Source: Natronoarchaeum rubrum
Lineage (GTDB): Archaea > Halobacteriota > Halobacteria > Halobacteriales > Natronoarchaeaceae
DNA: 64,000 nucleotides
Assembly: GCF_024494695.1 (NCBI RefSeq)
Contig: NZ_JANHDP010000005.1
Location: 186,001-250,000, forward strand
Direction: 5' to 3'
The position numbers were made by a program, and so were the translations under genes. Each line of letters starts with the position of its first letter. Within the stretch, counting starts at the first letter, position 1. Positions 11,524 to 37,516 of this stretch are shown piece after piece. A model generated the notes under the pieces. It saw only the letters and a list, made by a program, of their open reading frames with translations, did not search any database and was not told where the DNA came from.

Positions 11524-13053
11524 ATGGATTTCGAGCGGTATGCGGTATCGAACTTTCCTCTCGATCAAGGAACGGCAGAATCATCGGCGTTAGTACTTGA
11601 CCGGCCAGCCAGCATCTTCCTGCTACAGGAGAACACAACATTTGTGATCGTCCTCGTGGCTATCGGTTTGCTGGGCCTACTCGGTCTCGGAAAGCTAGTC
11701 GTCGACGATGGCCGCTCTGATGGCGGGGGAGGGGACCCATCTGAAACTACTAGCAAGAACACAGATACCGCGACCAGTGGCGATTCGACGTCCCCTGGAC
11801 AGCGAGTAGACGACCCACAGCTCGATTTCGAGGACCGAATCGGCGAGGAGACGATCGAACGGATAGAGGAGATTGCACCGTCCGCGGTCAGCCGAGTTCG
11901 GAGCCGACTGCCACTCGACGGATCGGGGACTCGACAGGATGTCGACGCGATAGAACGTGATCTTCGTAACGGCATCGAGGATGCCATCGCACAGGGGACG
12001 TTTGACCCGAGCGTCGAATCGCGCTACGGCGGCGCGTACGAAATCGTGAACCTCACAAGTGAGTACCGTGAGGTGACGCTTCCTACCTCACAAGAGACGC
12101 TCCACATCACGGAAATCGAGGCTGCCGCCAGCGACACCGTCGACGACGATTTCCGGAACGCGACGAGGACGCTCTCGATGCTATACGATCACTGTCGTGA
12201 GATCGAGACGTACATCGGCCGTCACGAGGACTCCTTTGCCGACCAATACGAGGATATAGAGCAGACGCTGGAGGACGTTCGCTCCCTCACGGAGAGACTC
12301 GAGGACTCGCTGAACGAGCGCGTCGGCGAGTTCGTGATAGAAGGACGACACGGCTCAGTCACGGGTGCCGTCGAGATCGAGCGGGAACTCGAAGCAGCCC
12401 GTGATGCGCTCCACGACTGCTCGTTCGAAGACGCGACCCGTCAACTCGACAGTACCGAACGGGACGCCGACGAACTCCTCGTTACGGTGGATTTCCTCGG
12501 CGGACTGGTTGGGACCGTCGAACACGGGGAGGGGAGGGTTGATATCCCATCGGCGGTTCCTGTCGCATTCGTCTCGGAGGTCATTCCGCTTATCGAGGAA
12601 GCATACGACGCTTCGACGACAGTCGAGAATCAAACCGTCGTCGTCGAAGAGTCGAGGGAAAAGACAGAATCGGACGGCACCACAGGGAGAGCGTCTACCG
12701 AGCCGGCGGATCGGGACGCCGAGAAATCAGAGAGCCGTTCGCGGGTTGCGCCGGAAGATGTCGCAGACGAGATACTATTCGTCCTCCGGGAACTCGATGG
12801 CGACGACGGAAACCGGGTGGAATGTCAGACTGAAGGGCTCCCCGAGAGTATTCTCTCCCCCGAGGTGTTGACGGAACTGGCGACGTTCTGCCGTCGTCAG
12901 ACGGATCTCGTCGACGATGTCCGGTTACAGGAGGATGCGCCACCCGGCTTTTTCGAGGTGGAGTTTTCCGACCGGATGAACGCCCGAGATGGACTCGAAA
13001 CGCTCAGAGAGCGGTTTGCCGAACAACACGGCCACGGCTCATCACGCACGTAA
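11524..13053 (+). CDS. Single-TM coiled-coil protein, first gene of the tubulin-like block
   Basis: The 509-residue product (start MDFERYAV; the frame extends 17 residues upstream without a better start) has one TM segment at about 36-57, rich in Leu/Gly. A Gly/Ser/Thr linker (58-95) follows, then a long acidic helical region (about 100-330, coiled-coil-like) and a compact alpha/beta domain at about 415-500 (DVADEILFVLREL and GFFEVEFSDRM). It looks like a membrane anchor with a cytoplasmic rod. It is followed after 37 nt by the first tubulin-like gene. I do not recognise a named family. Confidence 0.7.
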   Translation: MDFERYAVSNFPLDQGTAESSALVLDRPASIFLLQENTTFVIVLVAIGLLGLLGLGKLVVDDGRSDGGGGDPSETTSKNTDTATSGDSTSPGQRVDDPQLDFEDRIGEETIERIEEIAPSAVSRVRSRLPLDGSGTRQDVDAIERDLRNGIEDAIAQGTFDPSVESRYGGAYEIVNLTSEYREVTLPTSQETLHITEIEAAASDTVDDDFRNATRTLSMLYDHCREIETYIGRHEDSFADQYEDIEQTLEDVRSLTERLEDSLNERVGEFVIEGRHGSVTGAVEIERELEAARDALHDCSFEDATRQLDSTERDADELLVTVDFLGGLVGTVEHGEGRVDIPSAVPVAFVSEVIPLIEEAYDASTTVENQTVVVEESREKTESDGTTGRASTEPADRDAEKSESRSRVAPEDVADEILFVLRELDGDDGNRVECQTEGLPESILSPEVLTELATFCRRQTDLVDDVRLQEDAPPGFFEVEFSDRMNARDGLETLRERFAEQHGHGSSRT

Positions 13054-13090
13054 TCCTTTAGACACTTCGGCCGCACGGATAGTACGACTG

Positions 13091-14680
13091 ATGAGTAACG
13101 TCTGCAAAATCTGTATGCGTCGCGCAAACGAGTGGCAGGAACGGACGCTCGTCGACCACCTCCGTGCGGCCCATCGCGACGAACCGGCGTCGGTCGAACA
13201 GGTGTATCCGGAACTGCAGGAGGAAGTGTTTAGTGATACCGAGAATCAAGAGACGTCGGACGACCCGAGCTCACCGGAGCCGATTACGGAAGTCCCCAGC
13301 GACGACCTGATGGACGATTCCTACGGAAAAAAGTGGTATATGATCGGCGTCGGCGGCGCGGGGAACAATATTCTCGATGCGATCCTACTGCGCCGGGAGA
13401 CGCTAGCCGAAAACAATGAACGGCGAGCCCGGATCTGGCAGGGTGGACTCGCAGGGTACGGGCTGTTGAACACGAACGTGAGCGAACTCGAACAGACCTA
13501 CTACGCACAAGAGGAGAAAGGCTACTCCCGCAACGATCTGCTTCCGAACTGCATCATCGGCTGGGGAAAACACGACTACGCCGGTGCTGGCTACCGATGG
13601 GACATCGGCCGGGAGCTCATCGAAGCCGACTTCGAGTCCGGCGCTGACCCGTTTCAGGAGCGCTGGGACATGAAGAAGTCGGATATCCAGGACTCGCAAG
13701 CGGTGATGTTCGTTCACAGCGTTACGAAGGGTACCGGCTGTGGTTCGACGCCTCCCCTCGCCGAGAAGATCCGGACGCAGGTCCTCAACGACGACTTCGT
13801 CGTCCCGAAGCCGCTGTTTAGCAGCATCGTCATTCCCTCGGAGGGATCCGAGTACTCGGAGTTCGGTGGACGAGCGAAAGTAAACGGAATCGTCGGTCTC
13901 GCCCGAGCGTCGCGGGCCGTCGATGCGATCGTCCCGTTCGATAACAACCGTCTCGGCGACGTGCAGACCGATATCCGGCCACGAATCAATCGGCTCGGAG
14001 AGTACAACCCGCCGCAGTACGAGGAGATCAACAAACCGCTGGTAGCCTTTCTCGAAGCGTTCACGATGTCGTCGGTACCGCAGTTCCTCGACCGCGAGGC
14101 GACGATGTCGATCATGGGTGACGTGTTCGACCCCGCCGACAGCTTCCGACCGGTGCAGGACAAGTACCAGCAGGATCCCGATCGGGAGTTCACACCGGCG
14201 GTGATCCTCGCACCGGTACTGGGCCGTTCGCGAGCGAACTCGTTCAACCGATCGAAGCTGGAGATTCTCGTCAGAAACGCTTTGTTCCAGAACAAGCTCG
14301 CCGAGTTCGATCCGACGACCGCCTGGGGCGGCACGTTCCTCGTCTACGGCCCCGAAGAGAAGATGCAGGAGGTCTCGGAGTTCATCGCCGACGGGACGCT
14401 GTCGAGTATCATCGCCGACGAGCAGTTCCTCGACGCCGAACGGACCTCGGGGATCGAATCCGTCGACATCCACCTCAAACAGCTCGTTACTCCCTACCTC
14501 GACGACGTGTACCTCTGGGGAACGCTCTGGAACCCCGAAATGCCGTCGCTCGACGGGATGTACGAGCACGCTCGCACGCTCAAACAGGAGGGCAACACCC
14601 AGCAAGCCGAAAACGTCCGCGGGGTCTGGGACGAAGTCGAGTCGCTGTTCGCCTGTCTCGGGCGAGAAAACATGGCATAG
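13091..14680 (+). CDS. Divergent tubulin/FtsZ-superfamily protein 1 with N-terminal zinc finger
   Basis: The 529-residue protein starts with a C2H2-type finger, CKIC (5-8) and HLRAAH (23-28), and an acidic linker to about residue 80. A tubulin/FtsZ GTPase domain follows: T1 loop GVGGAGNNI (86-94), T4-like VTKGTGCGS (211-219, where GGGTG[ST]G is usual), FDNNRLGD (the FtsZ NDRL position) and a T7-like FLDREA. The first glycine of the T4 signature is changed to Lys, so GTP binding may be weakened. It is longer than FtsZ (about 380) because of the finger and insertions. A start 34 codons upstream is rejected, as it overlaps the previous gene. It probably polymerises or caps filaments with the two paralogues downstream (inferred). 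Confidence 0.8.
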   Translation: MSNVCKICMRRANEWQERTLVDHLRAAHRDEPASVEQVYPELQEEVFSDTENQETSDDPSSPEPITEVPSDDLMDDSYGKKWYMIGVGGAGNNILDAILLRRETLAENNERRARIWQGGLAGYGLLNTNVSELEQTYYAQEEKGYSRNDLLPNCIIGWGKHDYAGAGYRWDIGRELIEADFESGADPFQERWDMKKSDIQDSQAVMFVHSVTKGTGCGSTPPLAEKIRTQVLNDDFVVPKPLFSSIVIPSEGSEYSEFGGRAKVNGIVGLARASRAVDAIVPFDNNRLGDVQTDIRPRINRLGEYNPPQYEEINKPLVAFLEAFTMSSVPQFLDREATMSIMGDVFDPADSFRPVQDKYQQDPDREFTPAVILAPVLGRSRANSFNRSKLEILVRNALFQNKLAEFDPTTAWGGTFLVYGPEEKMQEVSEFIADGTLSSIIADEQFLDAERTSGIESVDIHLKQLVTPYLDDVYLWGTLWNPEMPSLDGMYEHARTLKQEGNTQQAENVRGVWDEVESLFACLGRENMA

Positions 14681-14761
14681 TTGTCGCGGGGAGTCGATCG
14701 CTCTCTATCGAGGCGACCGGAGGACCGCAAGCCGCGTCAGTGGACGAAATGCCGGCGGAAG

Positions 14762-14770
14762 TTATAGGAA
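14762..14770 (+). promoter_or_regulatory. Putative internal promoter in the 14681-14964 gap
   Basis: The 284-nt gap between tubulin-like gene 1 and the PH-domain gene holds an AT-rich island (TTATAGGAA, then further A/T runs to 14810) upstream of a small open frame. It could restart transcription within the long train. Confidence 0.3.
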
Positions 14771-14815
14771 ATTAAATGAAAAGTATTACAGTTACTTGCT
14801 AAATAAAGGACGACA

Positions 14816-14962: not shown

Positions 14963-14964
14963 CC

Positions 14965-17001
14965 ATGTCTGACGATCAGGGACACAAGGCGAGCACGGCC
15001 GGAATCAACCCCCTCGACGGCGAGATCGTCCTGCAGAACGCTCATCAGTCGTGGGTCAACTGGCTGCGGCGGCTCTTTTTTGCGGCATTTCTGCTCGTTC
15101 TGGGACTCAGTATCGGGGGCAGTCCTGGGGGCTTCCTGATGATGCTGGCGCTGGTGCTCTTTCTTAGCGTATACTTCTCCCGGCGGGCCAGCCGGTACAT
15201 CGTCACGAACCAGCGCGTAAAGCAGACATCCGGACTGTTGGGGACGTCAACGAACGAAGCCCGGCTAGAGACGCTAAACGGGATCTCGACTCAGGCGGGG
15301 TTCATTGAATCACTGTTCGGCAAGGGAACCGTTTCGGTCACCGACTCGGCCCGCGAGCAGTTCACCATCGATGGCGTCGGCAACTACGAAGAAGTCGCTC
15401 GGACGCTTCGGGAACAACAGCAGGCTGCCAACCAACCCGGTCAGGGGAGGTATCAGCAGCCGGCAGGCGGACAGCAGGCGCCGAGAGGTGGACAACAGGC
15501 ACCAGCAGGCGGACAGCAAACGCAGACGGGTGGCCAGCGCCAGAACCAACAGCAGGGACGTCAGGCGCAAAATACCACCGACAACAGCTCATCGTCCGAT
15601 AGCCGGAGCGAACAGCAAGAACAACAGGACGAGTCGACAACGTCGACCGTCGCAAAGCGTGACCGCTGTCTCGACTGTGGTGAGCTCGTCGATGCCGACG
15701 TCGATTTCTGTCCCGAGTGCGGTACCGAGGACCCGTTCACCGCTTCGCAGTCCGAAGATACCGGGACCACCACATCCGACGACACCAACGCCACTACCGC
15801 CGAAGGAATGCAAGCAACCCGGACGGCCGAACCGGAGACTGCCGATCATCCGGTAACCGCAGTCGCGGAATCCGTGCTCACGAACCGTCGACCACGGTCC
15901 GGAGCCGCCGATGAGCTATGCAGAGCGCTGGCCGACGATGATCCCGATCGCCAGCGTGTCGAGACGGCGCTAGTTGATGCCGTGGAGGCGATCGAGCGCT
16001 CGGCGGCCGTGACCGACGCGGTCGACCAAATTACCGATCCGACGGATCAGACCCAGGTGGAGTCGGCCCAGCGGTCGGTAGCCAGCAAGGAGGGTGACCT
16101 CGCGACTGCTATCGAGCCGGTTCTCGACGGCACGTCGAGTCTTATCGGCGATTTAGCGGAGTGTGAATCCCGCCACGAACGACTTTCGGGAGCGACCGGA
16201 GAGCTCTGTGATACCGTCGAACGCGAACACGACGTACGCATCAGAGCGAACAATGCCGCGGAACGGGCCTCTCAGGCGACCGAAGCGGTCGAAACTGCGG
16301 CGGCGACGGCCGAAACGTCGTCGGCACCGCTCTCGTCCGTCGTCGACGACGTTGAACGATCGGCGCGTCCACGCACCGAGCAGTCTCGGGAGCTACTCGA
16401 TGCACTCGACGAGCACGACGACGGAGAGTTGACCGAAGTACTGCGCTCGACGGTAGAATCGCTCGACGAGCACGACGAGCTTCAGGCGGCAGTCGCGGAA
16501 ATCAGTCAGCGAGACGTTCGGCGGCGGCTGACCTCGCTCGACGACGAACTTCAGCGCGAGGAGGGTGCGGTTTATCGCCATCTCGCGGATCGCATCCGCG
16601 AGATGGAGACGATGGTCGAGCGGGATGACATCGACGGCGTCCAGCTGTACGCCATCTACCAGGAGTGTACGTTCTACGACCGGACGCTGCTTCCGCGGCT
16701 CTCTCGGGAGGATACTGGCGGGAAGTCGGTCGACGTACGAGGTCTACTCGACGACGTCGAGTCGCGACGCTCCCGGATCGAAGACGAGTACGTTACCGTC
16801 AGGGCCGACCACAATCACACGATCCCGAACCACTTCCTGTCACTGGCTGGGAATCTCTGTGCCGAAGCCAAAAGCGTCAGCGACGACCGGCCGGAGCGAG
16901 CGGCTGGGATCCTATCGGCGTCGGATGAACTCCTCGAACACGTCGAACAGTTGTACGAACGCAACGAGTACAGCGTCATGCTGCGCCGCCTTCGCGGTTG
17001 A
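14965..17001 (+). CDS. Two-TM PH-domain protein with Gln-rich linker, zinc ribbon and coiled coil
   Basis: The 678-residue product combines two TM segments (about 37-51 and 56-72), a bacterial-PH-like (bPH2/DUF304) domain (about 75-148; RYIVTNQRVKQTSGLLG and LNGISTQAGFIESLFG are characteristic), a Gln/Gly-rich repeat linker (150-200), a four-Cys zinc ribbon (C235, C238, C249, C252) and about 400 residues of acidic helices. The last 70 residues (HTIPNHFLSL to SVMLRRL) form a helical module also seen in the 955-residue protein at 22780. It is probably a membrane-bound scaffold facing the cytoplasm and linking filaments to membrane. Function inferred from context only. Confidence 0.75.
   Translation: MSDDQGHKASTAGINPLDGEIVLQNAHQSWVNWLRRLFFAAFLLVLGLSIGGSPGGFLMMLALVLFLSVYFSRRASRYIVTNQRVKQTSGLLGTSTNEARLETLNGISTQAGFIESLFGKGTVSVTDSAREQFTIDGVGNYEEVARTLREQQQAANQPGQGRYQQPAGGQQAPRGGQQAPAGGQQTQTGGQRQNQQQGRQAQNTTDNSSSSDSRSEQQEQQDESTTSTVAKRDRCLDCGELVDADVDFCPECGTEDPFTASQSEDTGTTTSDDTNATTAEGMQATRTAEPETADHPVTAVAESVLTNRRPRSGAADELCRALADDDPDRQRVETALVDAVEAIERSAAVTDAVDQITDPTDQTQVESAQRSVASKEGDLATAIEPVLDGTSSLIGDLAECESRHERLSGATGELCDTVEREHDVRIRANNAAERASQATEAVETAAATAETSSAPLSSVVDDVERSARPRTEQSRELLDALDEHDDGELTEVLRSTVESLDEHDELQAAVAEISQRDVRRRLTSLDDELQREEGAVYRHLADRIREMETMVERDDIDGVQLYAIYQECTFYDRTLLPRLSREDTGGKSVDVRGLLDDVESRRSRIEDEYVTVRADHNHTIPNHFLSLAGNLCAEAKSVSDDRPERAAGILSASDELLEHVEQLYERNEYSVMLRRLRG
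15436..15564 (+). repeat. GGQQ-type degenerate coding repeat
   Basis: Inside the PH-domain gene, units of about 8 codons built on Gly-Gly-Gln-Gln (GGQQAP, GGQQAPA, GGQQTQ, GGQRQN) repeat five times, encoding a flexible linker between the PH domain and the zinc ribbon. Such tracts can change length by slippage and differ between strains. Confidence 0.6.
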
Positions 17002-17137: not shown

Positions 17138-18436
17138 ATGACGTACCTGTTCGTAGGGGCAGGCCAGGCGGGTGGTGCAATCGTCGACGCTATCTTCGAG
17201 TACACCGACGATTCGATGTTGGGACTTTTCGAATCGACCGACATCTCGACGCTCGGTCGGCCGCTGGTGTTCAACTCGACGATGCGTGACCTCCAGAACC
17301 TGTCGAACGTTCCCGAGGAAGACCAGTACGGTGTGGCAAAAGACCACGGACTGATCCAGGGGACCGAGCCGGGGTTCGAGGAGATGGTGACCGGCGGGTT
17401 CGGGCGGAACCCGGTGGACGCCGACGAGGTCATGAGCGAACACACCGACCAGCTGCAGGCGATCCTCGATGAGCGGTTCGGCAGTGGCGGGCTCGACCTA
17501 GACCTCGAGGACGAGGACGAGAACGAGGACGACGGGGCGTCCGCAGTCGAGAACTCCGACAATATTCAGTTTGCGTTTCTGTTTCTCGGCCTCGGCGGCG
17601 GTACGGGTTGTGGGATCGGACCGCATCTGGCACAGCAAATCAAGGAGTTTACCGACGGGTCGACGCACGTCGTTGCGGTCGCCGTGCTTCCCAACACCAG
17701 AGGCACGGGAGAGGACGACTCGGACGAGACAAATGCCGGACGCCAGGCCTGGAACGCCCGGTACGGGCTGGACCGTCTCGAGGATGCCGTCGACGGGATC
17801 GTGCTCGTCGACAATCAGCGGATCTCGTACCTCGACTCCGCCGGCGGCGAGTTCGGGGAGTACAACGAGTACGTCGCCACGGCGATCCACGATATGGTCG
17901 CGGGGCCGATGCTAAGTAGTGTCGACGCCAGCCAGGTCGACGGCGTCGACACCCCCGATATCGACGTTCGTGACATCATGACGTCGCTGTCGTTCGGTAT
18001 CGGCAACGACGAGTCCGAACCGGGCTACGGGGCGATCGGCCGGTCGGTGACCATGACCAAATCCCTGACCGGCTATCTGATGCCGTTTTTCGGAAACCGC
18101 GAGATCGACAGCGCGGCACTCTCCCGCCTGTCGGCATCGAAGCAGACGCTCGCGCGGGCAGACGCCGGGGACGCACAGAAGGCCATTTCCCTGGTGCGTG
18201 CTCCGAGCGGCAACTTGACCGCCGGCGCAAACAGCGTCGAGATCGGCACGGTAAAGGAGTATCTAGAGCGCAGTTGTAGCCTGAACGAGGTTAACATCGG
18301 CGTCGCACTCAGCGACAGAAACCTCGCGTCGGTGACGACGCTTTTGACCTACCAGCGGGAAGATCTGGATCGACTCGACGAGATCGAGCGGGCCGCCGAC
18401 GCCTACGAGGAGGAGACGGAGGAGCTACTCACATGA
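17138..18436 (+). CDS. Divergent tubulin/FtsZ-superfamily GTPase 2
   Basis: This 432-residue protein has the most complete GTPase signature of the three. T1 is GAGQAGGAI (7-15). The T4 signature GLGGGTGCG (151-159) is intact. IVLVDNQRI (221-229) follows, and the T7 catalytic loop TPDIDVRDIM (about 272-281) carries the aspartates that complete the active site of the neighbouring subunit in a filament. A long acidic insertion (about 118-140, EDEDENEDD) separates T1 from T4. The last 35 residues are an acidic helix. It overlaps the next small membrane gene by 4 nt (ATGA), so they are coupled. GTP-dependent polymerisation is the family expectation. Confidence 0.86.
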   Translation: MTYLFVGAGQAGGAIVDAIFEYTDDSMLGLFESTDISTLGRPLVFNSTMRDLQNLSNVPEEDQYGVAKDHGLIQGTEPGFEEMVTGGFGRNPVDADEVMSEHTDQLQAILDERFGSGGLDLDLEDEDENEDDGASAVENSDNIQFAFLFLGLGGGTGCGIGPHLAQQIKEFTDGSTHVVAVAVLPNTRGTGEDDSDETNAGRQAWNARYGLDRLEDAVDGIVLVDNQRISYLDSAGGEFGEYNEYVATAIHDMVAGPMLSSVDASQVDGVDTPDIDVRDIMTSLSFGIGNDESEPGYGAIGRSVTMTKSLTGYLMPFFGNREIDSAALSRLSASKQTLARADAGDAQKAISLVRAPSGNLTAGANSVEIGTVKEYLERSCSLNEVNIGVALSDRNLASVTTLLTYQREDLDRLDEIERAADAYEEETEELLT

Positions 18437-18711
18437 GCTCTCGGTGGTCACGCCGTATCGCAGTCAGCGTGCTGAGTGCGGTGGGAATCGCCACTCTTGG
18501 GGCGACACTCGCCATGGCAGCGAGTGATGGCTCGACGATCAGTGCCGCGATCGATGCGACGGAACTGCTCCGTTCGACCCGGTCGCTCTCCGAACAGATG
18601 GTCATCATCGCTGGCGGCGGGTTGTTGCTCGGAATCGGCGTCGGCGTCGTGGCCGCGGCGGGGATCACCTATTGGCTCAAGAATCGGCGGATCGAGAGGC
18701 GGTTACAATGA
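18433..18711 (+). CDS. Small two-helix membrane protein
   Basis: The 92-residue product has an N-terminal signal-like or TM segment (about 9-30, Ala/Leu/Val-rich after RWSRR), a short exoplasmic loop and a Gly-rich TM segment (about 56-82, IIAGGGLLLGIGVGVVAAAG) with a basic cytoplasmic tail (LKNRRIERRLQ). Start overlaps the tubulin-like stop by 4 nt and its own stop overlaps the next start (ATGA at 18708). Such coupling and the basic tail suggest a membrane anchor or assembly partner of the acidic tubulin-like protein. No named family recognised. Confidence 0.7.
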   Translation: MSSRWSRRIAVSVLSAVGIATLGATLAMAASDGSTISAAIDATELLRSTRSLSEQMVIIAGGGLLLGIGVGVVAAAGITYWLKNRRIERRLQ

Positions 18712-19466
18712 CTGGGCGGAGATGCGTCCTGTTGGTGGTCATCGCGTTGCTCGTGGGGGCCACCGCTGTCGGCGCACCCGTTGCCGCCAACGAGGCCGGC
18801 AACGGCGCCGAGAACGCCGATACCGAAGCGGTCGGGCTCGAAGGGATCGATCATCTGGTAGCAAACGACGAGGAGCTGGCCGCTCACGTCGGCGAGTACA
18901 GGGCGGCGACCGAAGCGTTCGAGACCGAACTCGACGAACTCAATGCGACGATCGACCGGATCGAAGGCGGCAACGATGGCGATCTCGGCGAGGCGGAGGC
19001 GATGCTCGAACGGCTCGACGATCGACACGAGAACATGACTACACAGGAAACGGAACTCAGACAGTATCTACTAACAGCGACGAGCGAAGGCAACGCGACG
19101 GGGACCTTCGACGCGATAGCAACGATCAACGACCGACAGGAGGACCGGACGGCTGCGCTGGCGACATCGACTGACGCGTACGTTACCGCGGTCGAAGACC
19201 GGCGATCGGACCCCCGATCGACCGTTCGGATGACGCTGTTTGGTTCGCTGCTTGGCGGACTCGTCGTCGGAATCGTTGCTGGAGCGGCCGTCCCAATCGT
19301 GGCAGCAAAGCGCGTTTCCGAGAAAATGAAGCTCAGCCGTGACGTGAGCTACGATCGGAAGGTCGTGCTGATCCCGGTTCTGGTCGGCATTGCGCTTGCA
19401 CTCGCCGGGATCGCTGTTCTCATCGTTCTCGGCGGCGGCGCGGAGCTACTGGAGGTGGTCCGATGA
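18708..19466 (+). CDS. Signal-peptide coiled-coil protein with two C-terminal TM helices
   Basis: The 252-residue product begins MTGRRCVLLVVIALLVG, a typical Sec signal ending near residue 27. It continues with an exoplasmic acidic coiled coil (about 45-165, heptad-like LDELNATIDRIE and LERLDDRHENM) and ends with two TM helices (about 178-198 and 221-244) joined by a basic cytoplasmic loop (AAKRVSEKMKLSRD). N-glycosylation sequons occur (for example NAT and NMT). I chose the ATG overlapping the previous stop rather than a start 12 codons upstream. It may sense or bridge the outer face of the complex. Confidence 0.72.
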   Translation: MTGRRCVLLVVIALLVGATAVGAPVAANEAGNGAENADTEAVGLEGIDHLVANDEELAAHVGEYRAATEAFETELDELNATIDRIEGGNDGDLGEAEAMLERLDDRHENMTTQETELRQYLLTATSEGNATGTFDAIATINDRQEDRTAALATSTDAYVTAVEDRRSDPRSTVRMTLFGSLLGGLVVGIVAGAAVPIVAAKRVSEKMKLSRDVSYDRKVVLIPVLVGIALALAGIAVLIVLGGGAELLEVVR

Positions 19467-21547: not shown

Positions 21548-21548
21548 A

Positions 21549-29283: not shown

Positions 29284-32115
29284 CTACTCGGTCCCACCCG
29301 TCCGCCGGAATCGCGTCGAGAGTGTATCGGTGATGTCGGGGACTGAAGCGGTTGTCGTCGGTTCCTCGATCTGTTCGACCGACCACCGATTGAGGTGCTC
29401 GTCGGTCCACTCGCTTTCGGCGTCAGTAGACGGCCCGGATGCGCGGAGGGAGAACTCGTGTTCGACACTATCGATCGCATAGTTGACGGTTACCTCGAAG
29501 CTCGGATCCGTGGCATCGGGATCAAGATCGACGAAGTGTTCGATCCGGTCGCCCGGTTCGAGTCGATCACAACGCGCGCTGGAATAGAATGTTTCGTTGA
29601 TTGATTCGCCAGAGGCGGTCACAACCACGTCAGACAGCACCTGCTCGACCTCGTTCTCCAAAACGAGGACTGCCGAACCGTACTCCCCGGCAGCCATCGT
29701 TTCGTCGCTGATCCGACTCGCGAGCGCAGTCGTTTCGTCGCCGGTTTCGTCAGTGCTATCGTCGACATCAGTGACCGTAGCGACAGTAGACAACGTGTCT
29801 GCAGTGTCGCCCTCGTACCGGAGGGTAACGTCTAATTCGATTGCATCGGCATCGAACCCGCCTTTTCCTCCGATAGTGATGATCGCAGATTCGCCGGGAT
29901 CGAGCCGCTTGTCGACGGATTCACTGATCCCGTAGTTCGGGGCTTCGACCCCGAGCAGTTGGCAGCGCCGATCATCCCGGTTCTCGATGTCGGCGTGCAC
30001 AGTCTCCGCGATCGGGTCGGCGACTGCGGCAACGTTCACTCGTCGTTCCGAAAGGTCGACACTGCGACTCGGGAGCGTTTCGACGGTCTCTCCGTCGACT
30101 ATCACGTCGACGGAATCGAAAGCGAGCGACTCGCTGGCGGGACTCGCGACGAGTCGCTCGCGCGTCTCGGTGCCAATCACGGGACCGAGAGTGACTTCGT
30201 CGTCGCCGATCAGAAGTATCACATCGGCGGATGCGTCGTCGCACTCGATCTCGATCCGATCTCGGACGACGCTTCCCTCGACCTCAGTCGAACGAGTTGC
30301 CGAGAGAGTGGGCGTGTCATCTGGTTCAGCGATCTGGTCCGATAGCTCCGGCTCCGGTGAGCTGGCGCCCGATAGCTCCGTGTCAGTATGTTGGTCCTGC
30401 GGTTCGGTACGTGTTCTCCCGGATCGACTTTCCTGTCGAGTGGATTCCTTCCGAGTGGACGGTTCACGACCGAAATTATCAGATTGTGTGTGTGTACGGG
30501 ACGGCGTCATGAACGGCCCGTCCTCGGAGATTCGGAATCGCTCTTCGACATCGATGGCATCGAAGCCGATTCTCGCGGTGCCGGACTCGTACTGCGGGAC
30601 GATCAGCAACAGCTCCTCGTTCGCTACGGTTACCGGTGGACGAACGCGCCCCGCGCCCGGTAGCTCGATCACGAGCCGATCGGAAATCGTCACGTCACCG
30701 TCGACCGAGACTGTGGTCCGTACCGTTTCGCCGCTGGTATCGACGTCAATCGTCGGTGCTGACGGTAACGTGCAGGTGGGTGCATACTCCCGTCGTCGTT
30801 CTCCACGAGTAACCTCGATACCGACGGAGACGCGTCGTCCGGCCTCGAACGACCGGGTGATCGGTGCGGTCCACGACCCACCAGGAGCGATCTCGTCGGT
30901 TCCTGCATCCTTTTCGAGCAACTCGACCGTCTCGATTGGGACAGCCCCGGGGTTCTCGACGGTGAGTTCGAGTTCGACAGTTCCGTCGTCTATCCGCGTC
31001 GGTGACAGCTCCGTCTCGACGTCTATCCCTCCGCTTGCAGCGTCTTCGACGGTGATAGTTTCACCTCCGGCAGGCGTACCGTCGACCGAGAGTTCGACCT
31101 CGATGTCGCCTTTCGTCCGTACCGAATCGACGCCGAATTCGATGAGTGTCGTCTCGCCTCCCGTGACGGTGACCGTCTGCTCGCGCTCCGAGAGCGAACA
31201 GTTCTCGAGATCAGCGGTAACTACGACCGTCCGCTCCTCCTCGGTCGGATTCGTCACCTCAACACTGATCGCTCCGCCGACTCCGACCGTGCCAGTGACG
31301 ACATCGACACTGATCCGGCTCCGATCGGGGACGTACGTCGAGACGGTGCCCTCGCGAACGAGACAGATAACGGAGTCGGCTGGCGCCTCGTACACATCAC
31401 CCTGGGAAAGCCAATCGATCGCATCAGTAGAGCCATCGAGACCGACCCGTCGAGGGCCGGCGGCGCTACTGACGAGGAGGCTCTCACCGCCGGCCGGGGC
31501 TACGTGATCGGCTTCGAGTTCGGTCCGCCATTCGGGCTCGCCCGTCGACTCGTCGATCCCGACGAGCTGGTCGCTCTGTAACGCCGCGACCACCGTTCCG
31601 TCACAGCGGCCGATACTTCTGACGACGGCGGTGAGATCGCGGTCGAAGCCCACCTCGCCGTCGGGGGTGACTTTCGTGAGGAATGACCACGTTGCGATCA
31701 CGAAGCCACTCGGGGCGGCCAGGAAGTCGTCGTCGCCGTTCCCGGGCCGGGGGCGTTCGATATCGAATCGCTCCCGGCCGCTGGCGATATCGACCGCCCT
31801 GAGTCGATCCGGACCGAGAACGCCACAGAGCCCCTCTGCACCGATCGCAGCGACCGACTCGGCGTTTTCGGCCGGCCGACTCCAGATCCGCTCGCCGTCT
31901 CGCGAGTAGGCCGTCAGTTCGTTGCCGGAGAGTACGATGACACGGTTCGCAAGGGCGACGTCGAGAATTCGCTCGCCATGATCGATATCAGCGCGTCCGT
32001 CGTCGGTGACGATTTCGACGCGTCCGTCCGTCCCGATCGCGACGGCGTCGGCGTCGATGCCGACGCCATCCACACGCGAACTCTCGAAGGACCCCGACTG
32101 TCGGAGATCACTCAT
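29284..32115 (-). CDS. Cytoplasmic beta-propeller (PQQ-like) protein with Ig-like domains
   Basis: The 943-residue product has no signal or TM segment. Residues about 1-275 show propeller-type blades with PQQ-repeat character (SGNELTAYSRDGERIWS, IGTDGRVEIVTDDG). Two or three acidic Ig-like sandwiches come next, then a Ser/Thr/Arg-rich disordered linker (about 535-610) and further sandwiches to about 910. It is the last gene of the minus-strand train; its ATG overlaps the AAA ATPase stop by 8 nt. It may be the cytoplasmic adaptor that mirrors the exoplasmic Ig protein. No named family. Confidence 0.72.
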   Translation of the reverse strand: MSDLRQSGSFESSRVDGVGIDADAVAIGTDGRVEIVTDDGRADIDHGERILDVALANRVIVLSGNELTAYSRDGERIWSRPAENAESVAAIGAEGLCGVLGPDRLRAVDIASGRERFDIERPRPGNGDDDFLAAPSGFVIATWSFLTKVTPDGEVGFDRDLTAVVRSIGRCDGTVVAALQSDQLVGIDESTGEPEWRTELEADHVAPAGGESLLVSSAAGPRRVGLDGSTDAIDWLSQGDVYEAPADSVICLVREGTVSTYVPDRSRISVDVVTGTVGVGGAISVEVTNPTEEERTVVVTADLENCSLSEREQTVTVTGGETTLIEFGVDSVRTKGDIEVELSVDGTPAGGETITVEDAASGGIDVETELSPTRIDDGTVELELTVENPGAVPIETVELLEKDAGTDEIAPGGSWTAPITRSFEAGRRVSVGIEVTRGERRREYAPTCTLPSAPTIDVDTSGETVRTTVSVDGDVTISDRLVIELPGAGRVRPPVTVANEELLLIVPQYESGTARIGFDAIDVEERFRISEDGPFMTPSRTHTQSDNFGREPSTRKESTRQESRSGRTRTEPQDQHTDTELSGASSPEPELSDQIAEPDDTPTLSATRSTEVEGSVVRDRIEIECDDASADVILLIGDDEVTLGPVIGTETRERLVASPASESLAFDSVDVIVDGETVETLPSRSVDLSERRVNVAAVADPIAETVHADIENRDDRRCQLLGVEAPNYGISESVDKRLDPGESAIITIGGKGGFDADAIELDVTLRYEGDTADTLSTVATVTDVDDSTDETGDETTALASRISDETMAAGEYGSAVLVLENEVEQVLSDVVVTASGESINETFYSSARCDRLEPGDRIEHFVDLDPDATDPSFEVTVNYAIDSVEHEFSLRASGPSTDAESEWTDEHLNRWSVEQIEEPTTTASVPDITDTLSTRFRRTGGTE

Positions 32116-33703
32116 CGTCACCACCCCCGGCGGCGGCGTCGCCGAGTAGACCCTCTAGTGTCGCGGTTTCTGTCCCGAGATTCATTCCCACTCTGTCGGC
32201 CTGCTCCTCGACGTATCTGCGAAGCTCGGGATACCCTTCGAGGTCGTCGACCTTCGTCCGGACGCTTGCAACGTACTGACGGACGGTTTTTGGCTCGGTG
32301 CCGTTGAGCCGTTCGAGGAAGTAATCAGTGGTTGGATCGATCGGTTCCCGGTCGGAGAGATGGACGCTTTCGACGAACTCGCGTTGCAGTTCGCTACCGA
32401 GGACGCGGTCGGCGATCTCGGCTGGGGTGTACCCCTCCGAAGCCTTTCCAAGTTGATCGTAATCGATCCCGTCGGTACCGTTCATGTCGGACAGATGTTT
32501 CTGCCACACCTCAGCCATCACCGTCTGGTCGGGTTGGGGAATGAACTGCTGAATCGGGAATCGGCGGGTCGCCGCCGGGTCGATCGTAAACGGCATGTTC
32601 GTTGCACCGATCACGAGGAGATTGTCCTCGATCTCGTTCATCTCCTGTAGAAATGCGTTCGTTAGGGAACGTTCGTGCCGTTGCAGTGAGTCGTCGCCGC
32701 GATCCGGAATCAGCGTATCGACCTCGTCGAAAAAGAGGACCGCGAACCCTTCCTGTGCGATCCCGTGGGCTTTCTCGAAGATCGCCTCGACGCGCTTCTC
32801 TGATTCGCCGGAGTACTTCGAGAGCACGTCGCTGCCCTTGACCTCCAGGAACTTCACCTCGCCGTAGCTGTCCTCGATATTCGAGTTGTACTTGGCCTCG
32901 TAGGCGATCGCCTCCGAGATGAGCGTCTTCCCACAGCCCGGTGGACCGTACAGCAGCATGCTGTTGCCCCGTGAGGCGAACTCGTCGCCGTATCGGGTGA
33001 CGACCTCGTCCCGGACATCGGGGTCGAACAGCGCGAGCAGGTTCTCGGCGGTCCGTTTCACTTCCGGCAATCCCGCGACGTCCTCCTCGAAGCTCACCGT
33101 GGGCTTCTTCGGTTCGAGGGAAACCTGAATCTCCTCGTCTCCATCGGGATCGTCGCCGCCAGCCCCCGACCCGACACGGCTGGCAGCGTCCCGCGTCGCT
33201 CGCAGTTCTCTGAGTTCGCCCGCGTCGATGAACTCCAGTTCGGTCTCCGGCGTGACGCGCAAGGTAGTGTAGCCCGACGGCTCCATCTCGGCGACCTCGA
33301 ACGTCGCCAGACTGTCGTCGCCGTTCGGAACGACTTCCTCCATCGGATGCAGGAGATAATCGTTCTCGCGGAGAAACGCCCCGAGCTCGTCGGGCGAAAC
33401 CTCGCTGGTGTGGATCTTCGCCGTGTCACACTCGACGACGTCGCGTTTGCTCGCGTCGGGATCGACGAGGAAATCCGTCGCGCGGTCGATCCCGTTGAAC
33501 ACTGTCTTGACGTTCTGGTGCATCCGCACCTTGTTGCCGATCCCGTCGACGATCGAATCGTCGACCGGGTCCACGTAGAAGAACGCTTGCCGGTCGTTGT
33601 GTCGGATTTCGATCGTTTCCGTGTTCGGTCCGACTTTTTTCGCGCCGATCTTGATCCGGGACGTCGGCTGGTCGCGTTTCAGTATTGGCGTGAGATTAAG
33701 CAT
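32108..33703 (-). CDS. Vps4/katanin-like AAA ATPase
   Basis: The 531-residue ATPase has a novel beta-rich N-domain (1-165), an acidic linker and a single AAA domain. Walker A is GPPGCGKT (253-260), the pore loop LSKYSGESEK (294-303), Walker B AVLFFDEVD (320-328), sensor 1 GATN (366-369) and the arginine fingers R380/R381. An unusual helical tail runs from 405 to 531. The pore loop resembles Vps4/CDC48 (SKWMGESEK). Such enzymes pull subunits from polymers through a hexameric pore. The start is MLNLTPILKR at 33703, matching the paralogous gene next door. I infer it disassembles the ESCRT-III-like or tubulin-like polymer of the block. Confidence 0.88.
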   Translation of the reverse strand: MLNLTPILKRDQPTSRIKIGAKKVGPNTETIEIRHNDRQAFFYVDPVDDSIVDGIGNKVRMHQNVKTVFNGIDRATDFLVDPDASKRDVVECDTAKIHTSEVSPDELGAFLRENDYLLHPMEEVVPNGDDSLATFEVAEMEPSGYTTLRVTPETELEFIDAGELRELRATRDAASRVGSGAGGDDPDGDEEIQVSLEPKKPTVSFEEDVAGLPEVKRTAENLLALFDPDVRDEVVTRYGDEFASRGNSMLLYGPPGCGKTLISEAIAYEAKYNSNIEDSYGEVKFLEVKGSDVLSKYSGESEKRVEAIFEKAHGIAQEGFAVLFFDEVDTLIPDRGDDSLQRHERSLTNAFLQEMNEIEDNLLVIGATNMPFTIDPAATRRFPIQQFIPQPDQTVMAEVWQKHLSDMNGTDGIDYDQLGKASEGYTPAEIADRVLGSELQREFVESVHLSDREPIDPTTDYFLERLNGTEPKTVRQYVASVRTKVDDLEGYPELRRYVEEQADRVGMNLGTETATLEGLLGDAAAGGGDDE

Positions 33704-33785: not shown

Positions 33786-33916
33786 AGGTCCGGGCGTCGG
33801 CCCGTTGGACGGCATACCACGACGTTTTAACCGGTGACTTCATGGAGCCGTCAACGAGCGTACCAGATTCATCAGGGACGCGGCAAGTCGGTGGTAGTAA
33901 CCAATCCCCGTACATA

Positions 33917-34651
33917 CTAATCCATCTCGAGATCGCTGGTATCGGGTTCTGATCCGTCCTCTTCGGCTTCGTCATCGGTTGTTTGTTGTACATCTTGGTC
34001 GATGGTCTCGATGTCGCCGATCACGTCGTCAACCAGCGACGCGACCTCATGGTCGGCAGTCTCCTCGACTGCTTTTTCGATCTCGCGGACGCCCTCGTGG
34101 AGGCGATCTTCTGACTGCATCCGATCGGAAGGTGTCTCGGAGGACTCGTCAGCAGTCGCTCCCTCTCCAGATTCAGATTCCTTGCCGTGAATGAACTCAA
34201 GGTCCGTGGTTGGAGTGATTCGTAGGGTGGTATGACCGGACGGCTCCATCTCGGCGACCTCGAACGTCGCCAGGCCGTCACCGTGCGGAATGACCTCTTC
34301 TGTCGGGTGCAACAAGTAGCCAGTTTTCCGAAGGAATCGCTCCAGATCGTCGGGATCAATCTCATTCGGCACGATTCTCGCAGCCTCACAGTCTACGATG
34401 TCGTGTGTCGTCACGTCAGGATCCACGAGGAAGTCCTTGCTCCGGTCGATCTCGTCGAACACTCCCTCGACGTTGCGGTTGAGTCGTGCCTTATTTCCGC
34501 TTCCATCGACGATCGGTTCGACGTAAAAGAACGCTCGCTTGTCGTTATGGCAGACCTCGACAGTACTGGTATCGGGTCGAATATGCTGGATTCCGATCTT
34601 GATCCGGGACGTCGGCTGGTCGCGTTTCAGTATTGGCGTGAGATTAAGCAT
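33917..34651 (-). CDS. Stand-alone AAA N-domain paralogue with shared acidic tail
   Basis: The 244-residue product begins MLNLTPILKRDQPTSRIKIG, the same 20 residues as the AAA ATPase, and follows its N-domain to about residue 165 (YLLHPTEEVIPHGD, ATFEVAEMEPSG). It lacks any AAA domain. Instead it ends with an acidic helical tail (ADHEVASLVDDVIGDIE, then SDLEMD) that is clearly related to the tail of the ESCRT-III-like protein (ADHEVGSMVDDVLGDIE, SGLEM). It looks like an adaptor or a competitor that links the tail to the AAA partner. The start overlaps the upstream stop by 8 nt. Confidence 0.78.
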   Translation of the reverse strand: MLNLTPILKRDQPTSRIKIGIQHIRPDTSTVEVCHNDKRAFFYVEPIVDGSGNKARLNRNVEGVFDEIDRSKDFLVDPDVTTHDIVDCEAARIVPNEIDPDDLERFLRKTGYLLHPTEEVIPHGDGLATFEVAEMEPSGHTTLRITPTTDLEFIHGKESESGEGATADESSETPSDRMQSEDRLHEGVREIEKAVEETADHEVASLVDDVIGDIETIDQDVQQTTDDEAEEDGSEPDTSDLEMD

Positions 34652-34738
34652 TATCGTCACTCCGTAGTTGTGTTGTGGTGCGTTCGATCGCTGAGAGCAG
34701 TTCGCCCTGCCGGTGGTCGGTGCGCTCGCGGACGTACC
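34595..34738. repeat. 139-bp near-identical duplication, copy B
   Basis: Partner of 33647-33785; here the segment spans the functional junction between the 230-residue gene and the 244-residue gene. Confidence 0.85.
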
Positions 34739-35336
34739 GGGTTCCGGCGTCGGCCTGCCGAAGGATCCGAACGAGCGTTTCCACCATTTCGACGATCGCG
34801 TCACATCCCGATGTCAGGGCGGCGTCGCTGTCGTCGGCCCGCACGCGCCCGACGATCCGCCGGAAGTCGTCGAGAACGTCGTCGAGTCGGGCGAGCAACG
34901 TCTCGAGGACCGGTTTCCAGTTGCGGGCGTACGGCCCGCTCGGTGACAGGGGAACGAATATCCACGAGTCGACGGTTCGGAGCCGTCGGCTGGCTTCGAC
35001 CTGCTCCGCGACGTCGGGCTCGAGCGATTCGACGGTCGCGCCGCCACGCTCGTAGCTGGCGTCGAGCACTGCGGGGACGAGGTCGTCACGGCGTACCGCT
35101 GCTTCGTCGACTACTTCCCCGCCGTCGGACCGGTAGTCGTCGATCGCCGTCGCAGACCTCTGGTGTGGCGGGAACGGAGCGGCGGCCCGCAGGAGTTCCG
35201 CGATATCGACGAGCGCGCTCATTGCGACGTCGATCCGCCACGTTGGGCCTGCTCCGGAGAACGTCCGAAGCGACAGGAGCGCCGCTCCCTGTTGGTCGAC
35301 CCGGCGAACCCCCTGAAGCAGCGAGTTGGCGCGCAT
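34644..35336 (-). CDS. Helical protein of the ESCRT-like train
   Basis: The 230-residue product (ATG at 35336, 4 nt after the stop of the ESCRT-III-like gene) is predicted mostly helical. An N-terminal bundle (LLQGVRRVDQQGAALLSLRTF) comes first, a mixed middle with SWIFVPLSPSGPYARNWKP follows, and long C-terminal helices include YVRERTDHRQGELLSAIERT. No TM and no known motif. A copy of its last 30 codons lies upstream of the AAA gene. Tight packing with both neighbours suggests a subunit of the same complex. Confidence 0.65.
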   Translation of the reverse strand: MRANSLLQGVRRVDQQGAALLSLRTFSGAGPTWRIDVAMSALVDIAELLRAAAPFPPHQRSATAIDDYRSDGGEVVDEAAVRRDDLVPAVLDASYERGGATVESLEPDVAEQVEASRRLRTVDSWIFVPLSPSGPYARNWKPVLETLLARLDDVLDDFRRIVGRVRADDSDAALTSGCDAIVEMVETLVRILRQADAGTRYVRERTDHRQGELLSAIERTTTQLRSDDNA

Positions 35337-35340: not shown

Positions 35341-36384
35341 CTACATCTCGAGTCCGCTCGTTTCGGTCTCTTGGGTCTCCTCGCCCGCGGTCTGTTGGGC
35401 GGTTTCGCCGACGTTCTCGATATCGCCGAGCACGTCGTCGACCATCGACCCGACCTCGTGGTCAGCGGTGTTGTCGACAGCCTCCTCGATACCGCCGACG
35501 CCGGCAAGCTGTGTCGTCAGTTCCCCCATGTTATCCACGATGTTCATCGCCTCGTCGGGGAACGACTGCTCTTGGAGGGCTTTCGTTCGGACCTGTTCTT
35601 GCTTGTTCGACAGTGTGGTTCTGGCCGATTTCAGCATCTCGATGTTGTCTGCCAGCCGGTCAGCGCCGGTCTCTACCTTCTTCGCGAGATTCTCGCGGTC
35701 GGCCTCTTTCATCTTTTTGTGATAGACGAGTTTGCGCTTGAGCTGCTGAAACCGCTCGCGTTCCTCCTCAGTGAGCTTGGAAGGGTCCTCGGGGACGCCC
35801 GCTCCGTCTCCGAGACTTTTGAGCTCCTGTGCGGTCTCCTCGAGGTACTCGTCGATCTGCCCCGAGTCCTGCTCGATACCGTCCATCCGGTCTTCGAGCT
35901 TCTCTTTCGCGCTGTCGACTCGGTCGATCGTTTCGGAGATTTTTTCGACGCAAGCATCGATCGCAGCAGCCCAGTTGAGAATCATCCGCCCGTTGATCTC
36001 GTCGGGGTCGTCGCTGGGGTTGCGAAGGAGCACGACCTGTCCGCCCTGACGTTCGAGGATGTTTTCTGAAGCGAAAAACTCGATCAACGCTTCGGCCTGC
36101 TGTTCGCTGGTAACGATCTCGCCTTGGTCGTCGCTAGCCGCAGCGAGTGTCTCGATCGCCTCCCGACGATCGATCCGGCCGTTGCCCTCCTTAAGTTCCA
36201 TCGAGCCGAGCAGATCGGTTTTGATGATCGCTCGAATGGCTCGTTCCCACTCCCCATCGACATCGTCTCCTTCGACCCATTGAGCATCGAGGCGAACCGG
36301 ATCGTCAGTCTGATTCAATGGATCGGCGATTACGTACTCCTGTCCGTCGCTTTCGATTCGTTCGAATTCGTATTTTTGAGGCAT
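35341..36384 (-). CDS. ESCRT-III-like (Snf7/CdvB-like) helical protein with N-terminal winged helix
   Basis: The 347-residue product has a wHTH-like N-domain (about 30-120: RREAIETL, ALIEFFASENILERQGGQVVLL). Long basic-to-acidic helices follow from about 135 to 280; the stretch LKRKLVYHKKMKEADRENLA resembles the lysine-rich hairpin of ESCRT-III (compare ALKRKKRYEKQL in Snf7). Next come a DEAMNIVDNMGELTTQL helix, the pattern VGSMVDDVLGDIENVGE (compare VDDLMDEI in Vps2/Snf7) and an acidic tail ending SGLEM. The adjacent Vps4-like ATPase supports the call. Classic ESCRT-III is rare or absent in haloarchaea, so this is an inference requiring structural comparison. Confidence 0.6.
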   Translation of the reverse strand: MPQKYEFERIESDGQEYVIADPLNQTDDPVRLDAQWVEGDDVDGEWERAIRAIIKTDLLGSMELKEGNGRIDRREAIETLAAASDDQGEIVTSEQQAEALIEFFASENILERQGGQVVLLRNPSDDPDEINGRMILNWAAAIDACVEKISETIDRVDSAKEKLEDRMDGIEQDSGQIDEYLEETAQELKSLGDGAGVPEDPSKLTEEERERFQQLKRKLVYHKKMKEADRENLAKKVETGADRLADNIEMLKSARTTLSNKQEQVRTKALQEQSFPDEAMNIVDNMGELTTQLAGVGGIEEAVDNTADHEVGSMVDDVLGDIENVGETAQQTAGEETQETETSGLEM

Positions 36385-36397
36385 TGTTGATACCGTG

Positions 36398-37516
36398 TTA
36401 CTCGGCCATTCCGCCGAACTCCTCTTCGTTCACAAGCGTTCTGTACTGCTCTCGGACGGCGTCCCGGACGTGCTCGTTCACCGACTCCGCGCTGCTCACT
36501 CGCAGCTCCTCGAAATGCTCTTCGCCCAGCTCGACCCATTCTGGTAGCGTACCCGGAAGCTGGTTTGCGTCGGCTTTCACTTCCGTGAGGATCCGCTGTG
36601 CGTGGTCCTCGGTAACAGCTGCGAACGGCTCGGACGCTTCTACCATCTCGCGGCCCACGTTGAGCCCGAGTTGCTCGACCAGAGTCTCTCGGACGCCGTC
36701 GATGATTTCACGCCGAACGCTGCGGGCCTCCGAAAGCACGTCGAACTGGCGTGTGATCTCGTTTTCGACAACCTGCTCGAATTCGCCCACGCGAAGGATG
36801 TAGCTCGACTCCTCGAACTCCGATTCGACGGCGTTTTCGATTTCGCCGGCGAGGTACTGGGCGTACTCGTCGATCGCTTCCTCGACGAGATACTCGCCAT
36901 CGAGGTCGACGATGTATCCCTCACGGTCGAGATACCGTATCACGTCGGACGTCGCAGCGACATCGATCACGCTCTCTAGGTCGGCGTGGGCGATCTTCCC
37001 GTTCGAGGCTTCGCGGGCGAGCCGCGAGTCCAATCCCACGTCGTCGGCGTGTTCTTTGAGCTGCGGTCCGATCGTGTAGTAGTCGCGTTTCCCGGCCGTG
37101 ATCCGCCTGATGTAATCTCGCTCGGCGAGTTCGTCGACGAAGAACTCGAGATCGTCGATCGCGAGCGAGAACCGGGATCGGAGTGTCTCGCCCGTGACGA
37201 CGAGACGCTGTCCGAACAGGTTTGTCAGCTCGCCGGTGATTTTCATGTTTCCTTTCACGCCGAACGGATCGACGTAGAAGACGCCGTCGCGGATCTGTTC
37301 CAGGTCGACGAACTCGTCCGAGGTCATCTCAGTGAGCGCCTCGCGCATATCGCTCGAACTCAAGGATCGTGCGTTGAGTAGGCCAATATCAGCACTCTCA
37401 TACCCGGACTTGAGCTCCTTTTTGTGGTCTGCGACGTAGACAAACCCGTAGTTGTCCTGAGCAATGTCTCGGCAGACATCCTCAAGGATATCCGTATCGA
37501 TCGGCAGGAGAGTCAT
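36398..37516 (-). CDS. Tandem winged-helix protein, first gene of the minus-strand train
   Basis: The 372-residue product starts MTLLPIDTDILEDVCRDIAQ and contains several helix-helix-strand-strand units typical of winged helices (REALTEMTSDEFVDLEQIRD with FYVDP; ELAERDYIRRITAGKRDYYTIG; VIRYLDREGYIVDLDGEYLVE), then a helical half (210-372). Such tandem winged helices are found in ESCRT-II-type adaptors and in transcription factors; no DNA-binding specificity can be read here. Because it leads the train of ESCRT-III-like and AAA genes, an adaptor role is preferred (inferred). Confidence 0.62.
   Translation of the reverse strand: MTLLPIDTDILEDVCRDIAQDNYGFVYVADHKKELKSGYESADIGLLNARSLSSSDMREALTEMTSDEFVDLEQIRDGVFYVDPFGVKGNMKITGELTNLFGQRLVVTGETLRSRFSLAIDDLEFFVDELAERDYIRRITAGKRDYYTIGPQLKEHADDVGLDSRLAREASNGKIAHADLESVIDVAATSDVIRYLDREGYIVDLDGEYLVEEAIDEYAQYLAGEIENAVESEFEESSYILRVGEFEQVVENEITRQFDVLSEARSVRREIIDGVRETLVEQLGLNVGREMVEASEPFAAVTEDHAQRILTEVKADANQLPGTLPEWVELGEEHFEELRVSSAESVNEHVRDAVREQYRTLVNEEEFGGMAE

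Follow-up and report, generated by a model that had tools for sequence, protein, structure and literature searches.

A conserved haloarchaeal locus joining three tubulin-superfamily proteins to a Cdc48/Vps4-type AAA ATPase train

A 26-kb block (11524..37516) in a 64,000-nucleotide stretch of the Natronoarchaeum rubrum genome (the window; contig NZ_JANHDP010000005.1, positions 186,001 to 250,000) encodes three proteins of the tubulin superfamily, a series of predicted membrane-anchored proteins and an AAA ATPase. The block is a single conserved unit rather than two, and may well specify a membrane-tethered tubulin polymer that is remodelled by the ATPase, a reading for and against which we see about equal weight. 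As far as the main-text sections of Makarova et al. 2024 (PMC10936438) describe it, the locus fits their Halo_adaptin ESCRT system; what we add to the printed account is a constant trio of tubulins, a degenerate zinc-finger member among them, gene trains that are retained when unlinked, a cassette difference within the ATPase train, and a form that lacks the AAA ATPase.

The block consists of two convergent gene trains, to which we have given our own labels. Eleven genes lie on the plus strand (11524-29066: g1, TubA, PHzn, TubB, tm5, tm6, cc7, TubC, g9, g10 and g11) and six on the minus strand (37516-29284: m6, m5, m4, m3, m2 and m1). The open reading frame calls agree with the extents given for both trains in the initial annotation, and the stop/start overlaps from which it had suggested coupled translation were also seen, three of them ATGA and three of 8 bases. 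Membrane-like hydrophobic segments are present in 8 of the 11 plus-train products, as against 0 of the 6 minus-train products.

That annotation had staked its proposal of one machine on the two trains occurring together, and they do: among 322 Halobacteria genomes searched with profiles of five families (TubA, TubB, TubC, AAA and m6), TubC is present in all 31 that have both m6 and the AAA ATPase. All five families were found in 31 genomes and none in 287; two genomes (G048 and G054) had TubB and TubC alone and two (G087 and G037) had a remote TubA alone. Matches were counted at E ≤ 1e-20 for TubA and TubB, E ≤ 1e-60 for the AAA ATPase and E ≤ 1e-5 for m6. The TubC search matched 259 of the 322 genomes at E ≤ 1e-5, of which we counted the 33 with at least 326 bits; the uncounted matches scored at most 58 bits and lay mostly over query residues 10-137. 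The TubA search found 33 genomes; the matches in G087 (254 bits) and G037 (209 bits) were treated as remote and left out of the count.

In 26 of these 31 genomes TubC and m6 point towards each other at a distance of 13.4-16.5 kb. A contig end falls between the trains in G002, where both contigs end within the block, and in G168, where the AAA gene is on the TubC contig. The trains are split in three genomes, lying ~259 kb apart in G023, ~80 kb apart in G104 and on separate contigs in G067; both are nevertheless present, so they are kept even without linkage. These counts contradict the idea that two unrelated neighbouring operons merely meet here. Being convergent, the trains are not one transcript, and their separation in G023 and G104 would suit unrelated operons, but with 31 of 31 co-occurrences and both trains kept after separation we regard that explanation as barely credible.

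Gene order is conserved as well. The named genomes yielded seven relatives of TubC: Halorubrum amylolyticum, H. persicum, H. salsamenti, Natrinema versiforme, Natronomonas aquatica, Halobiforma haloterrestris and a Haloferacaceae bin, the locus of the last (L004) being a 3.5-kb fragment with three block genes. The six full relatives keep the gene order of the plus train and have m1 after it, with tm5 undetected in two of them (L002 and L006), and all six have m2, m4, m5 and m6 in order, with an intervening contig break in H. persicum. The order is also kept in nine further loci read whole; among loci so read, tm5 was undetected in G153, G300, G130, G167 and G179, and m1 in G130. Where the trains have separated, in G023 and G104, detection of tm5 and tm6 is patchy. 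When the families around G048 and G054 were sampled, TubB was present in 19 of 109 genomes of the first and in 14 of 89 of the second; this added four genomes, and the AAA ATPase was present in all four. The m6 gene of G044 (G044:C1:2567114-2568214) has one in-frame TGA in the assembly.

Three tubulin clades, one with a degenerate GTPase site

TubA (13091..14680, +), TubB (17138..18436, +) and TubC (21549..22778, +) scored 39, 64.3 and 35.1 bits, respectively, with the Pfam Tubulin family, all above its cut-off of 33 bits. The earlier assignment of the three to the tubulin/FtsZ superfamily thus holds by Pfam, at the level of sequence homology. The tubulins rank among the most conserved products of the block, TubC being 75-87% identical to its seven relatives.

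Although they share the superfamily and its GTPase domain with FtsZ and CetZ, TubA, TubB and TubC scored 24.3, 34.0 and 17.7 bits with the FtsZ equivalog TIGR00065, for which the cut-off is 295.2. Nor do they pass Pfam Tubulin_2 (cut-off 27), which we take to stand for the FtsZl1 family: TubA and TubB reached 11.6 and 17.1 bits, TubC gave no row, and the window tubulins are 409-529 residues long compared to ~1000, with coiled coil, for FtsZl1. In a 64-row tree they formed three clades of their own, outside 17 FtsZ/CetZ-type rows and hence not within a CetZ clade; each clade sits on a long stem, with support of 100 for TubA, 100 for TubC and 91 for TubB. The 17 comparison rows came from four genomes and were named by us; they derive from 30 loci, of which 20 were tried and 18 gave usable frames. 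The tree contains 64 of 77 rows, those omitted being 12 rows of G023, G091, G006 and G003 and the canonical row L105. Since FtsZ/CetZ-type rows were also found in the same four genomes searched, TubA, TubB and TubC look like additions beside the division FtsZ, not replacements of it.

A motif census separated the three proteins further. A G-box of sequence GGGTG(C/N)G is present, together with a D-x-x-D pair, in 19/19 TubB and 19/19 TubC rows; the spacing of this acid pair equals that of the NxDxxD loop, the catalytic loop of FtsZ, which is found in full in 8 of the 18 FtsZ/CetZ-type rows. The corresponding G-box region of TubA reads TKGTGCG in 17 of 19 rows, the protein has no constant acid pair, and TubA is probably unable to hydrolyse GTP. 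Its N-terminus carries a C2H2-like zinc-finger motif of the C-x2-C...H-x4-H type in 18 of 19 rows, the exception being G037. At least 23 of 115 public TubA rows are named 'cell division protein FtsZ', a practical annotation error (24.3 bits for the window copy versus 295.2), and all TubA rows with an organism name are haloarchaeal, including Natrinema, Natronorubrum, Halorussus, Halobaculum, Halorubellus, Haloarcula, Halosimplex and Halogeometricum.

The two remote TubA relatives (L070:8899-10581, −; L071:8985-10766, −) are in genomes without TubB and TubC and lie beside very large uncharacterised genes. At one of these loci a further gene (L071:2154-3524) starts with a glycine-rich loop resembling that of a tubulin relative, and in G037 an AAA-type gene is located ~8 kb from TubA (C9:123894, 84 bits).

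Quasi-tandem copies of a tubulin relative, Halo.Tub, have been reported by Santana-Molina et al. 2023 (PMC9871819), and by description Halo.Tub probably corresponds to TubA, TubB and TubC. The relevant section and passages of that paper do not link Halo.Tub to the ATPase train, and the joining of three tubulins to this train is not stated in the main-text sections of either PMC9871819 or PMC10936438. A search of literature titles and abstract openings, which mostly covered papers outside subscription, returned no three-tubulin ESCRT-like locus apart from the papers cited here.

The ATPase train and its Halo_adaptin counterpart

The minus-train product m2 (32108..33703, −) is a Cdc48/Vps4-type AAA ATPase with an N-domain of its own (residues ~1-195). 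It scored 111.4 bits with Pfam AAA, and among solved structures its AAA core matched VCP-like and p97 chains best (up to 180 bits), with Vps4B at 99 bits. The CDC48 and CdvC models gave 130 and 121 bits, both under those models' own cut-offs. While m2 shares its AAA core with Cdc48/p97 and CdvC/Vps4, it differs from them in having one AAA domain and an N-domain whose profile found no PDB sequence better than E 0.56. No MIT row appeared among the 24 Pfam families matched by m2 at E ≤ 1, and Pfam gave no CDC48 N-domain row. We also considered the anti-phage AAA ATPase model NF042959 and rejected it, with 89.5 bits against a cut-off of 510 and the PADLOC matches falling in the AAA domain.

Near the ATPase gene lie m5 (35341..36384, −), for which AlphaFold2 (AF2) predicts a winged helix (residues 44-120) and, after it, long helices that lead to an acidic tail at the C-terminus, making it a candidate ESCRT-III-like subunit, and m4 (34644..35336, −), a fast-evolving protein predicted by AF2 to be a helical bundle. 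The remaining members are m6 (36398..37516, −), a conserved protein without a transmembrane-like segment that gave weak matches in a PDB sequence search, m3 (33917..34651, −), and m1 (29284..32115, −), a protein without a transmembrane-like segment that combines a PQQ-type beta-propeller (PQQ_2, 33.3 bits; cut-off 27.6) with an Ig-like stretch. Among the block products scanned, m1 was the only one with a propeller row in Pfam.

This arrangement matches the Halo_adaptin ESCRT system as set out in the main text of PMC10936438. There, a Vps4-like AAA ATPase without MIT domain and with an N-domain related to VAT-N is preceded upstream by an ESCRT-III/PspA-like protein, which in turn is preceded by a winged-helix and coiled-coil protein; a duplicated winged-helix protein is the proximal gene, and the locus further has two propeller-plus-Ig adaptin-like proteins and one CetZ-like protein. 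Here, the AAA ATPase is likewise without an MIT row and the relative order of the ATPase part is the same: m4 occupies the slot directly upstream of the ATPase expected for the ESCRT-III/PspA-like protein (m3 being extra), the winged-helix and long-helix protein m5 is upstream of m4, m6 sits at the place of the proximal gene, and m1 corresponds to an 'adaptin-like' protein. CetZ-related proteins are also part of the locus, in our case as three tubulin genes in 31 of the 31 genomes with the AAA ATPase. The differences are that we find three constant tubulin clades versus the one CetZ-like protein described, one propeller protein versus two, and no reproduction of the ESCRT-III relation. The initial annotation had put forward a tubulin-plus-ESCRT machine as new; a matching gene set has been in print since 2024 under the Halo_adaptin name (PMC10936438, main-text sections), so the machine class is not. 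Overall, the observations made in that annotation were confirmed in part and its interpretation was supported in part.

Within the ATPase train, Halorubrum genomes differ in a cassette. When G001 and G003 were compared in 30-column blocks, residues 1-210 of m6 and the AAA core were each 90-100% identical, as opposed to 41-57% for the end of m6 (from residue ~270), 23-57% for m5, 17-38% for m4 and 43-65% for the AAA N-domain. The divergent cassette of G003 is also present in G002, and against G002/G003 the overall identities of G001 are 96/91% for the AAA core, 51/50% for the N-domain, 39/39% for m5 and 24/23% for m4, with TubA, TubB and TubC 94-98% identical among the three genomes. This divergent cassette, which runs from the end of m6 through m5 and m4 to the ATPase N-domain, is located at L015:5349-9733 and L016:3918-8287; no close source for it was present among the genomes compared. 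The cassette is bounded inside two genes and joins the ATPase N-domain to two helical proteins, as expected of co-adapted partners; the C-terminal part of m6 belongs to the swapped segment.

The window gene m3 is, by sequence comparison, a chimera of an ATPase N-domain and the m5 tail. Direct repeats 83 and 84 bases long (98 and 96% identity) lie within 33645-33802 and 34593-34755, and m3 therefore apparently arose by local duplication; it is absent from the six relatives examined. Taken together, the cassette difference and the m3 fusion point to a physical partnership of the ATPase N-domain with m5 and m4, as judged from these sequence relationships.

The tubulin core with and without the ATPase

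Two genomes, G048 and G054, lack part of the system. Both have TubB, tm6, cc7, TubC, g9, g10 and g11, and an m1 relative (133 and 118 bits, respectively) faces g11. Whole-genome profile searches in which the best few candidates were scored gave no match for TubA or m6, and no AAA ortholog was found when all AAA candidates were scored, as was also done in G087 and G037. The best AAA matches reached 100.8 and 94.1 bits, the level of ordinary Cdc48-type hits in other genomes, compared to 1113 and 690 bits for the orthologs that served as positive controls. The AAA module is therefore not essential to the core.

Within ~6 kb of the block both genomes encode a 1157-residue Tubulin_2 protein (L077:7217-10690, +, and L078:11989-15462, −; 36.5 and 35.7 bits against the Pfam cut-off of 27). 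The gene set of these genomes suggests that TubA and the giant Tubulin_2 protein may be alternative occupants of the third tubulin position. In the passages of Makarova and Koonin 2010 that deal with it, FtsZl1 is a non-division tubulin relative of 1051 residues in proposed membrane-remodelling gene sets (PMC2875224). The giant protein beside the G048/G054 core is of similar size; the window tubulins differ from FtsZl1 in their length and in failing Tubulin_2, and none of the window products scanned gave a vWA or OmpA row in Pfam.

These observations bear on which part of the system is central. Makarova et al. favour vesicle formation and protein sorting in the main-text sections of their paper (PMC10936438), with the ESCRT part at the centre, whereas our data put the tubulin core first. 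In an account that starts from ESCRT, a diverged ESCRT system would serve vesicles or protein sorting, the Vps4-like ATPase would remove an m5/m4 polymer, m1 and the Ig proteins would pick cargo, and the tubulins would be accessory. The agreement of the gene set with the Halo_adaptin description, the winged-helix gene near the ATPase, and the cassette difference and m3 fusion, which suit an ATPase/substrate pair, all favour such an account. However, 2 of 33 genomes have the TubB-TubC core but neither the AAA ortholog nor TubA nor m6, while the AAA ATPase and m6 occur without tubulins in 0 of 31, the tubulins belong to the best-conserved products, and no ESCRT-III fold was found for m5 or m4, the last point being inconclusive. 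We consider an ESCRT-centred system possible and on the unlikely side; the primary element appears to be the tubulin core and not the ESCRT-like part.

The additions described here speak more for a tubulin core whose driver can be exchanged than for an ESCRT system to which tubulins are accessory. Our tentative extension, somewhat less probable than the remodelled polymer itself, is that a TubB-TubC membrane core runs either with the zinc-finger TubA and an AAA/winged-helix puller or, in the absence of the AAA ATPase, with a giant tubulin of the FtsZl1 type. The Halo_adaptin ESCRT system and the FtsZl1 system would in that case belong to a single class of tubulin-driven membrane remodellers, as two variants of it. 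If so, this would be a third tubulin-based machine of haloarchaea, beside FtsZ for division and CetZ for shape.

In the tubulin-polymer reading, TubB and TubC would assemble into a GTP-dependent polymer, perhaps one in which both are mixed, and TubA would cap or link this polymer without hydrolysing GTP, its zinc finger serving as a handle. The TubB-TubC-membrane core is placed at the centre because the second form lacks TubA and the AAA ATPase. Tethering to the membrane would be provided by g1, cc7 and PHzn, connection to a layer outside the cell by tm6, g9, g10 and g11, and m1 would act as a cytoplasmic adaptor. The AAA ring would hold a helical assembly of m5, m4 and m6 through its N-domain and pull this assembly apart, upon which the membrane patch might bud, protrude or reset. 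The AAA module would be one of two drivers, the second form having the giant Tubulin_2 protein beside the TubB-TubC core. If this is right, one locus combines a Cdc48/Vps4-type motor with three tubulin relatives that differ in role and of which one seems to lack GTPase activity. This would bear on the origin of multi-tubulin polymers and of ESCRT-like membrane machines, and cultivable organisms, for example Natrinema versiforme (L005) and Halobiforma haloterrestris (L007), carry the locus.

A different use of the same core would be a tubulin array under the membrane that arranges g9-g11 into a structure for adhesion or one associated with the S-layer; the AAA ATPase would then be an assembly factor, and there would be no budding. 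The membrane-like segments of most plus-train products and the retention of g9, g10 and g11 with the core in G048 and G054 speak for it; yet it leaves the AAA/m5/m4 cassette and the propeller protein unexplained by itself, and the Ig-like matches are under the Pfam cut-offs. We consider this organiser unlikely. A TubZ-like device for DNA segregation or chromosome organisation, in which m4 and the winged helix would act somewhat as MukF does, seems to us very improbable.

Several points weigh against a tubulin polymer remodelled by an ESCRT-like ATPase module. The order of the polymer, capping by TubA and budding are guesses, and the Tubulin_2 form rests on two genomes. The genomes counted share descent, so that 31 genomes are not 31 independent events, and in the class-wide searches scoring was limited to the top candidates of each genome (no more than 6; 4 for the AAA ATPase). 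The tree was made by a quick method and came with long-branch warnings, because of which the order among tubulin groups means little, and the support of 91 for TubB is below the starred level; the TubA profile found no PDB match. PHzn, outside the cassette, varies too (54-81% identity among Halorubrum; 55% between G001 and G003), and fast evolution could therefore explain part of the cassette divergence. Finally, the wHTH/ESCRT-III-like pair of the initial annotation was borne out as to the winged helix predicted in m5; an ESCRT-III fold was confirmed for neither m5 nor m4. Neither a Snf7 nor a PspA_IM30 row appeared among the 12 Pfam families for the window m5 or the 1 for the window m4, nor among those listed for nine m5 members (the best 25 of 44) and seven m4 members (3 of 3). 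Foldseek with the predicted m5 and m4 structures gave no match at E ≤ 0.001, and no ESCRT-III chain was among the structure matches listed for them. This missing relation is inconclusive and does not disprove an ESCRT-III fold.

Membrane and surface proteins of the plus train

The train opens with g1 (11524..13053, +), a predicted membrane-anchored coiled coil with a transmembrane-like segment at residues 41-59, whose position is conserved in the relatives. PHzn (14965..17001, +) has two transmembrane-like segments, a bacterial PH domain and a zinc-ribbon-like stretch; of the PH/zinc-ribbon scaffold proposed earlier, the PH part exceeds its cut-off (bPH_2, 29.4 bits; cut-off 22) and the zinc-ribbon match is under its own. 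Downstream of TubB, and overlapping it by ATGA, is the small predicted membrane protein tm5 (18433..18711, +), followed by the predicted membrane protein tm6 (18708..19466, +; transmembrane-like residues 7-25, 181-199 and 224-242) and by cc7 (19463..21547, +), a predicted membrane-anchored helical protein with transmembrane-like residues 5-23 and 36-54 and an Ig-like stretch, 54-67% identical to its seven relatives.

Beyond TubC, g9 (22780..25647, +) has a signal- or transmembrane-like start, three central transmembrane-like segments and a carboxypeptidase-regulatory-like, Ig-type region (CarboxypepD_reg, 28.5 bits, under the cut-off of 32.3), and g10 (25652..26704, +) has transmembrane-like segments close to both ends. 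The last gene, g11 (26697..29066, +), overlaps g10 by 8 bases and encodes a signal-like start, Ig-like stretches and a C-terminal transmembrane-like segment. The exoplasmic Ig-like proteins of the initial annotation are matched as Ig-like stretches, with scores, including those of g11, under the Pfam cut-offs. Outside the block, the left end of the window (1-4000) has a G+C content of 0.53-0.56, compared to at least 0.60 over most of the remainder.

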